From: Klebsiella pneumoniae | GTDB lineage: Bacteria; Pseudomonadota; Gammaproteobacteria; Steroidobacterales; Steroidobacteraceae | Length of the DNA: 64,000 nucleotides | Assembly: GCA_945873095.1 (NCBI GenBank) | Contig: CAMCBU010000002.1 | Location: 1 to 64,000 of the forward strand | Direction of reading: 5' to 3' | Shown: one piece after another, positions 4,495 through 7,054 of the stretch | Layout of the letters: every line of letters begins with the position of its first letter | How positions within the stretch are numbered: the first letter of the stretch is position 1 | Made by a program: the position numbers and the translations under genes | The notes under the pieces: generated by a model | Database searches by the model: none | Told to the model about the DNA's origin: nothing | What the model saw: the letters and a program-made list of their open reading frames with translations, nothing else

Positions 4495-5265
4495 ATGGCA
4501 CAGCCCCCGGCCGATCCGAAACTTCCGATCCTGCAACGCGATCATCGCAGTGTGATGGGGAAGATCCTCTACACCAGCAAGAAGCCGGACCGCCTGAACC
4601 AAGAGCGTGGTCGCGAGTACTTCCGCATGGATGTCCACGCCGACGGCACCCGCACTTGCACGGCGCACTGCGAAATCGACGATCGCCCCTCGGTGATGCG
4701 CGACATCACCTACTCGCTCGATGCCCACTGGATGCCCACCGACTGTTTCGTCAGGCTGTCGGTCGGCAGTAAATTCATGGGCTCGGGTTGGTTCCGCTTC
4801 CATCCGCAATACGCCGAATGTGAAGCCTGGACCTCACTCGAAGGTCGCGTCACGCAAACGATGGACCTCTCGACGCCGCTGCTGACCTTCCAGAACCACG
4901 CGATCGCTTGCGATGCCTGGCATCTGCGGCTGATCGACCAGAACAAGCCCGGGGTCGTGCAACGTATCAACCAAATGCTGCTCTCCTCGCCCGATCATCG
5001 CGGTGCGACGGGACCCATGCTGTTCTCGATCGGCCTCAATCTCGTGTTCGTCGGCCCCGAGAAGGTCACGGTCGGCGCCGGCACCTTCGATGCGCTGCAC
5101 TACCAGTTCGTCAGCAACCCGGAGTTGCCGCAAGAGCACCCGCCCTACGATGTGTGGTGTACCGCTGACGGCGACTACCTGTTCCTGAAGGGACAGGTCG
5201 CGGGCTATATGCAGACGTACTACGAGCTGGTTGAACTGTCTCGAGGACCTCACTGGGGAAATTGA
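4495..5265 (+). CDS. Conserved hypothetical protein
   Basis: Start taken at ATG 4495 (preceded by GAGGAGCG); MAQPPADPKLPILQRDHRSVMGKILYTSKK... ; no family recognised with confidence. Confidence 0.6.
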   Translation: MAQPPADPKLPILQRDHRSVMGKILYTSKKPDRLNQERGREYFRMDVHADGTRTCTAHCEIDDRPSVMRDITYSLDAHWMPTDCFVRLSVGSKFMGSGWFRFHPQYAECEAWTSLEGRVTQTMDLSTPLLTFQNHAIACDAWHLRLIDQNKPGVVQRINQMLLSSPDHRGATGPMLFSIGLNLVFVGPEKVTVGAGTFDALHYQFVSNPELPQEHPPYDVWCTADGDYLFLKGQVAGYMQTYYELVELSRGPHWGN

Positions 5266-5300
5266 TCCCGCTTCTGTGATCTATGTCGCATTTTTGTCAC

Positions 5301-5328
5301 TAGACAGTCATCTTGTTGGTTGTATACT
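5301..5328 (+). promoter_or_regulatory. Sigma70-like promoter TAGACA-N16-TATACT
   Basis: -35 TAGACA 5301-5306, -10 TATACT 5323-5328; each 5/6 to consensus. Confidence 0.6.
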
Positions 5329-5330
5329 CA

Positions 5331-5552
5331 CCACGTTCGTGGCAGTTAGACAACACAGAACCTTGGCAGGCGACGTGGACACGGAAAAGGGTGATCCCTC
5401 ATTTTGGGGCTCCCGAGGAATCGGCCAACAGCGCGGTTCCGCCGGATTCGATTAGCGTCCACGGGGCGACTCTTTTGCAGTCGCCGCATAGTGTCAGACC
5501 CGGGAGTGACGAATTCTGCCGAGCAAACCCCGCGCTTGCGCGGGGTTTTTTA
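5331..5552 (+). ncRNA. Candidate structured non-coding RNA (class not recognised)
   Basis: Promoter upstream, intrinsic terminator at end; closing stem CTTGGCAG(5362-5369)/CTGCCGAG(5516-5523), inner stem CGTGGAC(5374-5380)/GTCCACG(5457-5463), hairpin GGCGACT-N7-AGTCGCC (5465-5485). Confidence 0.6.
5528..5552 (+). terminator. Rho-independent terminator
   Basis: CCCCGCG-CTTG-CGCGGGG followed by TTTTTTATT. Confidence 0.9.
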
Positions 5553-5569: not shown

Positions 5570-7054
5570 TTAGGGCAATTCCGTCGAGCCCATCAACCAG
5601 CGATCGCACTCGCGCGCCGCACCGCGACCTTCGTTGATCGCCCACACGACCAAACTCTGTCCGCGGCGACAATCGCCTGCAGCGAAAACGCCCGGAGTAT
5701 TGGTGGCGTAGTGGCCGTACTCGGCTTTGACGTTGCGCCGATCGTCGAACTCGATCCCAAGATCCTGCGGCAACGACGTCTCAGGTCCCGTGAAGCCCAT
5801 CGCAAGCAGCACGAGTTGCGCCGGCTGGATACGCTCGGTGCCCGCTTGCTCGATCGGCGCAAATTGACCGCGCTCGTTTTTCTCCCAACGCACTTCGACC
5901 GTGACGATTTCTTTGACTCGACCGGTTTCATCACCGATGAGTCTCTTGACCGTCGTGAAGTAAGCGCGTGGATCCTGGCCGAACTTGGCTGCCGCCTCTT
6001 CCTGGCCGTAGTCCATCTTGTACACGCGCGGCCACTCGGGCCACGGGTTGTCGACCGCGCGCTCGAGCGGCGGCTTCGACAAGATCTCGAATTGCGTGAG
6101 CGTGCGACAGCCTTGGCGCATGGCGGTGCCGACACAATCGGTGCCGGTGTCGCCACCGCCAACGACGACGACGTCGAGTCCCTTGGCGTGCAAGGCGGCA
6201 GCGGCCGGATTCTTCGCCAATACGGCATCGGTCGCGCCGGTGAGATAGTCCATCGCGAAATGCACGCCCGTAAGCGCGCGGCCTTCCACAGCGAGATCTC
6301 GCGGTTGCGTCGAGCCGGTGCACAAGACGATCGCGTCGAAGTCGCGGCGCACCATCTGCGCCTCGTAGTTATCGCCGACGTTCGTGTTGCAGACGAACTT
6401 GATTCCTTCTTGCTCGAGCAACTTGATGCGACGCATCACGACGTCCTGCTTATCGAGCTTCATGTTGGGAATGCCATACATCAAAAGTCCACCCGGCCGG
6501 GCAGCACGCTCGAGCACGGTCACCGTATGGCCGGCGCGATTCAGCTGCTGCGCGGCAGCAAGTCCCGCGGGTCCCGAGCCCACAACAGCGACTTTCTTGC
6601 CGGTCCGAGTCTTCGGCGGTTCGGCTACCACCCAACCCTCTTCGAAGCCCCGCTCGATGATCGAATTTTCGATGTTCTTGATCGTGACCGGCGGCGCATT
6701 GATGCCGAGCACACAAGACCCCTCGCAAGGTGCGGGACACACGCGTCCGGTGAACTCCGGAAAATTATTGGTCTTGTGCAGACGATCGAGTGCCTCACGC
6801 CACAGTCCCCGATAAACGAGATCGTTCCACTCAGGAATGAGGTTGTTGACGGGGCAGCCTGCCGCGCCACCACTGATCATCTTGCCGGTGTGACAAAACG
6901 GCACGCCGCAATCCATGCAGCGCGCTGCTTGGTTGCGCAGGCTACGATCATCGAGATGGTGATGGAACTCGCGCCAATCTTTGACCCGTTCGATCGGCGA
7001 TCGGTCGAGCGGGATTTCGCGTAAATATTCGATGAACCCGGTCGGCTTGCCCAT
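5570..7054 (-). CDS. gltD: Glutamate synthase small subunit
   Basis: 494 aa; Cys-rich N-terminus ([21 protein letters not shown]), dinucleotide-binding motif [13 protein letters not shown]. Confidence 0.97.

Follow-up and report, generated by a model that had tools for sequence, protein, structure and literature searches.

A probable stand-alone structured RNA gene beside gltD and its homologues in the Steroidobacteraceae

The question raised by this locus is what occupies the gap between two ordinary genes of the window, i.e. the whole stretch of 64,000 nucleotides analysed here. Upstream, the gene of a 256-aa protein without known family lies on the forward strand (4495-5265); downstream, gltD, which encodes the small subunit of glutamate synthase, converges from the reverse strand (5570-7054). 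Both are outside the segment in question (5301-5552, forward strand), which, judged by its sequence, looks like an independent single-copy RNA gene. A sequence-only reading had proposed an independently transcribed, structured non-coding RNA of unrecognised class, and the motifs it quoted are all present in the sequence at about the places where it had put them. The comparative analysis bears this proposal out with strong covariation, a conserved terminator, a promoter element at constant spacing and no Rfam match at the gathering threshold. We consider it very probable that the locus holds a stand-alone gene for a structured RNA that Rfam does not cover.

Transcription unit and distribution of homologues

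The predicted promoter and strong terminator were both found. The promoter, TAGACA-N16-TATACT (5301-5328, forward strand), is the sole sigma70-like match between 5000 and 6000 on both strands, where 0.3 matches are expected, and a -10 hexamer of the TATACT/TATAAT type recurs in the homologues. Transcription would start near 5335. Upstream lies the element TGTCGC (5284-5289, forward strand), 39 bp 5' of the -10 hexamer; it is found 39 or 40 bp 5' of the -10 in 21 of the 32 homologues in which a -10 can be assigned, and this spacing is fixed, even as the modelled region begins anywhere from 33 to 168 nt after the -10. The surroundings of TGTCGC take the form GTGA-N6-TCG in 14 copies. The evidence for an own promoter, a -10 hexamer with TGTCGC at constant spacing, is thus evidence at the level of sequence. 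Positions 5275-5290 of the window read TGTGA-N6-TCGCA and overlap the conserved TGTCGC. This sequence resembles an operator of the CRP family (CRP/Clp/Vfr-type), and a regulator of that family may be the one that binds here.

The strong intrinsic terminator with its T run (5525-5552, forward strand) recurs in the homologues: a terminator follows within 90 nt of helix P1 in 34 out of 34 copies, whereas none of 544 control stretches taken from these loci has one. Both covariance models give one strong match per genome. Expression of the RNA is predicted from these sequence features.

In a DNA search, three genomes proved to carry near-identical copies and diverged matches came from others, and a motif common to the genus was found by reading the region 3' of gltD. 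A covariance model built from ten genus sequences (R1) has a match in 23 out of 24 genus genomes; in one of these (G012) a contig end truncates the copy, and the only genome lacking a match is 83% complete. R1 also gave an indication of larger versions in other genera. The second model (R2) was built from nine long-form copies, with the window copy and its short relatives left out; it recovers the window copy with E = 2.1e-13, and its matches are spread over 9 of the 25 sampled genera of the Steroidobacteraceae. With R2, no copy was found in 15 other families of the order, and among 274 genomes of the class a single doubtful one (G354) came up elsewhere; as candidates are pre-filtered in these searches, the lack of matches beyond the family does not prove absence. 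The doubtful copy lies on a 2974-bp contig (C111) together with the usual upstream gene of the 256-aa protein (L121), in a genome assigned to another family and with 6% contamination. Given the short contig, the contamination and a neighbouring gene typical of Steroidobacteraceae, it may be misbinned; both misbinning and a wider distribution are possible. One further match (G049, E = 0.06) was rejected, as it lies inside a coding region. A search of public genomes with the combined pattern yielded seven contigs; three carry the title Steroidobacteraceae, and the others come from MAGs of unspecified (Gamma)proteobacteria. Collections of plasmids, phages and viruses gave no match. So far, the RNA class has been seen in Steroidobacteraceae (order Steroidobacterales, Gammaproteobacteria).

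A conserved fold with two three-way junctions

Folding of the single window sequence gives a z-score of -2.0 if the terminator is included and of -0.85 if it is left out. This signal is weak, and the case for a structured RNA therefore rests on comparison. The consensus fold has 52 pairs and consists of two stacked three-way junctions, P1/P2/P5 and P2b/P3/P4. In the nine long-form sequences, aligned structure-blind with MAFFT (the training alignment of R2), 93.3% of cells are in standard pairs, versus 34-43% when the partners are slid, and 23 of the 52 pairs show double changes, versus 11.2 +- 2.0 in shuffles. The ten genus sequences, taken separately, support P1, P2 and P5, with 94.8% paired and 25 double-change cells versus 9.8 in shuffles. 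For both of these sets the structures were chosen on those very alignments, which were not fitted to the model, as opposed to the alignments of the 21 and 32 sequences, which were. Among the 21 sequences, model-fitted as they are, compensatory double changes occur in 39 of the 52 pairs, versus 20.9 in shuffles, and 94% of pair cells are paired in the enlarged set, versus 33-40% in slid controls; among the 32, double changes reach 40 of the 52 pairs. Covariation, suggested beforehand as a check on this RNA, is strong across homologues: compensatory changes lie well above the shuffles, and the conserved secondary structure covaries.

The outer junction is closed by P1 (5361-5372 paired with 5492-5504, forward strand, according to models R2 and R3), in which 9 of 11 pairs show double changes across the family, although the helix is weakened in the window copy. 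P2 (5374-5380 with 5457-5463) is the nested stem CGTGGAC/GTCCACG already recognised from the single sequence; it is conserved with compensatory changes, and 6 of its 7 pairs show double changes, GTGGAC/GTCCAC being exchanged for GCGGGC/GCCCGC. The hairpin GGCGACT-CTTTTGC-AGTCGCC, likewise singled out beforehand, proves to be P5, the second arm of the outer junction (5465-5485). It too is conserved with compensatory changes, which affect 3 of 7 pairs within the genus; its length is variable elsewhere. The inner junction is closed by P2b (CGG 5382-5384 with CCG 5442-5444), which gives no covariation evidence of its own, because it is invariant. P3, a hairpin with a U-rich loop (5389-5414), has double changes in 9 of 10 pairs in the family. 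P4 (5417-5440) is a simple hairpin in the window copy. In the long forms, it closes three further hairpins, P4a (GCGUG/CACGC), P4b (GGCU/AGCC) and P4c (GGGGC/GCUCC), and this cap is present in most other genera.

Other elements of the sequence-only reading fare differently. The closing stem that it drew between CTTGGCAG and CTGCCGAG (5362-5369 with 5516-5523) shows no compensatory change and has no counterpart beyond close relatives, among which two keep 7 of 8 pairs and a third 6 of 8. The conserved P1 shares the 5' arm of that stem but pairs with 5492-5504. For the window copy itself, unconstrained folding favours the 5362-5369/5516-5523 stem at -87.4 kcal/mol, versus -81.5 with the conserved P1 enforced. 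The mini-hairpin CCGA-GGAA-TCGG competes with the conserved P4 and finds no support. As for the small 5' hairpin CCAC-GTTC-GTGG (5331-5342, forward strand), it is present in the four closest genomes, but it is specific to this lineage and invariant there.

Most relatives carry a domain of about 100 nt in place of the small 5' hairpin. When this domain, which lies upstream of P1, is read by eye, hairpin motifs of the GUAAGU and GAUGC types are seen to recur (L064, L065 and most long forms). The clade of the window (G000, G001, G005 and G023) has neither the 5' domain nor the P4 cap, and its RNA is therefore a reduced form: the full class measures about 340 nt in most carriers, and the shortened window copy about 220 nt.

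Outside the helices, conservation is lower (0.62 for unpaired versus 0.78 for paired positions). The conserved unpaired parts are the stretch GCUGACAG, which precedes P1, and the U-rich P3 loop, while the loop motif CUCNUUUG is limited to the genus.

Known RNA families and genomic neighbours

At the gathering thresholds of Rfam 15, no family matches anywhere in the 64 kb of the window, so that the comparison with Rfam proposed for this locus has been made and matched no known family. When thresholds were relaxed, for the window and 13 homologous loci, matches (rnk_pseudo, Leu_leader, asX2, isrJ and others) appeared only below the gathering scores; as weak hits due mostly to the terminator hairpin, they were rejected. 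Across window positions 1-64000, no tRNA or tmRNA was found.

The size of the RNA and its closing stem superficially recall 6S RNA, which raises the idea that a housekeeping RNA (6S, RNase P, SRP RNA or tmRNA) is present here in diverged form. We regard this as extremely improbable. As the sequence-only reading had held, the RNA is neither 6S nor RNase P: the true copies lie at other loci of the same genome (G000), 6S RNA at C6:45661-45850 with 64.4 bits and RNase P RNA (RF00010) at C25:21-395 with 318 bits, and identity with either was rejected on these grounds. It had also seen no hallmark of SRP RNA or tmRNA. No copy of these two was located in the genome, but neither family matches at the locus, and no Rfam family exceeds its gathering score even with lax filters. 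There is some likeness to 6S RNA (RF00013), since both are stand-alone, single-copy, structured RNAs that measure about 190 nt, possess a closing stem and may share a protein-binding principle. 6S RNA is a long rod whose central bubble mimics an open promoter. The present RNA has no match to its covariance model and forms two three-way junctions instead of a rod with a central bubble.

A role in binding CsrA/RsmA had been left open in the sequence-only reading, and an RNA that sequesters this protein in the manner of CsrB or RsmY would explain the five GGA trinucleotides of the window copy as well as the activator-like upstream element. Sponges of this type carry several conserved unpaired GGA (ANGGA) motifs, and the known GacA site is TGTAAG-N6-CTTACA. 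The likeness to CsrB, RsmY and RsmZ extends to a stand-alone, trans-acting RNA with a terminator. In the consensus fold, however, no GGA is fully unpaired in the window copy or in most relatives, the homologues have between 0 and 2 each, and none is conserved. Because GGA is not conserved in unpaired positions, the CsrA role is not supported; furthermore, TGTCGC differs from the GacA site, and no CsrB/RsmY family matches above its gathering score. Sequestration of CsrA is thus very unlikely.

Within the genus, the gene order is the 256-aa protein, the RNA and then convergent gltD, which adjoins the RNA in most genus genomes. This association suggests that the RNA controls a neighbour such as gltD in cis, as a leader, riboswitch or attenuator. 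We consider such a role highly improbable: gltD is on the opposite strand and convergent in every case, an orientation that refutes its cis-regulation, and the RNA ends in a terminator. Since gltD is convergent and the neighbours differ between genera, the RNA is not a cis element of gltD. Elsewhere, it adjoins rpoH or unrelated genes. In three genomes of two genera (G140, G179 and G200; L127, L128 and L135), it directly follows rpoH in the same orientation and ends in a terminator of its own. An rpoH-linked origin was considered and discarded, as no other convincing copy was found near rpoH in 28 further genomes of the family and order.

The gene of the 256-aa protein is the same-strand upstream neighbour at 23 of 34 loci, including three outside the genus (G111, G232 and G354). 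The protein (window 4495-5265) has about 81-98% identity across loci. It has no match in Pfam or NCBIfam and is an orphan protein family.

A search for papers on RNA of Steroidobacter or Steroidobacteraceae, or on small RNAs 3' of gltD or rpoH, returned nothing relevant in a literature sample with thin coverage of subscription journals. Brewer et al. (2021, PMC8632094) described a riboswitch candidate of Selenomonadales and Veillonellales, the gltD motif (SRC-18-1), which is invariably located immediately 5' of gltD. This motif shares with the present RNA the association with gltD, whereas the latter converges on the 3' end of that gene, has its own terminator, occupies other sites in other genera and belongs to another host group.

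Comparative genomics has brought up other orphan structured RNAs (raiA, OLE and similar), whose function was not known at discovery. The present RNA is like them in its complex, conserved multi-junction fold and its own transcription unit, but none of them matched in the Rfam scans, and lineage and fold are different. With a fold kept across many genera and no catalogued family matched, the RNA appears to be a new class. Stand-alone structured RNAs of bacteria are already known as a kind; judged against Rfam, it is the family and the fold that are new.

Possible mode of action

The RNA's own terminator, one strong copy per genome and varied neighbours characterize a trans-acting RNA gene, and the RNA probably acts in trans. 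As a whole, the observations are best explained by a stand-alone structured RNA gene, present here in a compact lineage form, that regulates in trans via protein binding; we give this reading a probability of about 0.5. According to this model, transcription from the RNA's own promoter would be under regulation through the conserved upstream element, the transcript would fold into the two stacked three-way junctions, and the RNA would exert a regulatory effect in trans by way of this fold. Most likely, the fold would offer a protein a binding platform or a decoy, with the working principle of 6S or CsrB but identical to neither; taken as a mechanism of its own, the platform or decoy has a chance that we put slightly short of even.

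The main rival is a trans-acting, base-pairing small RNA of the Hfq or ProQ type that uses exposed loops. The compact genus forms expose C-U-C-N-U-U-U-G in the loops of P3 and P5 in many members, and these CUCNUUUG loops could pair with Shine-Dalgarno sequences (AAAGGAG); the wider family has a U-rich P3 loop, and the U tail of a Rho-independent terminator as well as a regulated-looking promoter would also suit such an RNA. On the other hand, the P5 loop is not kept beyond the genus, the length of P5 is strongly variable, conservation is lower in unpaired than in paired columns, and simple antisense RNAs need a less elaborate fold. The better conservation of paired positions, together with the elaborate fold, favours action based on shape over a long antisense seed, and base pairing is in our estimation possible but rather improbable. 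A ribozyme or another RNA with a tertiary fold and without a stable protein partner, e.g. a self-processing one, would be in keeping with the compact nested three-way junctions, the invariant P2b (CGG/CCG) and the conserved unpaired GCUGACAG. Since no known ribozyme family matches and the gene is single-copy with a terminator, we deem this quite unlikely. GCUGACAG and the U-rich loops could also have a part in base pairing or catalysis, a point against the protein-binding model.

A poorly studied bacterial family, the Steroidobacteraceae, turns out to host an RNA class that nearly every sampled genome of one genus carries and that is present in nine genera or more; Rfam 15 contains no family for it. 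The class now has defined boundaries, a promoter and homologues, and its covarying consensus of 52 pairs can directly supply the covariance model with which a new family would be entered. From the natural range of long and short forms it can be read which parts are dispensable (the 5' domain and the P4 cap) and which persist (P1, P2, P2b, P3 and P5). Large conserved RNAs of initially obscure function have repeatedly proved to be central regulators. Tentatively, and with more doubt than confidence, we suggest that this locus might be the first representative of a hitherto unrecognised class of large regulatory RNAs. Such an RNA would attach to a central protein of the cell and control it, in the way that 6S RNA binds RNA polymerase, under a dedicated transcriptional activator, and the lineage of the window may have kept its minimal working core.
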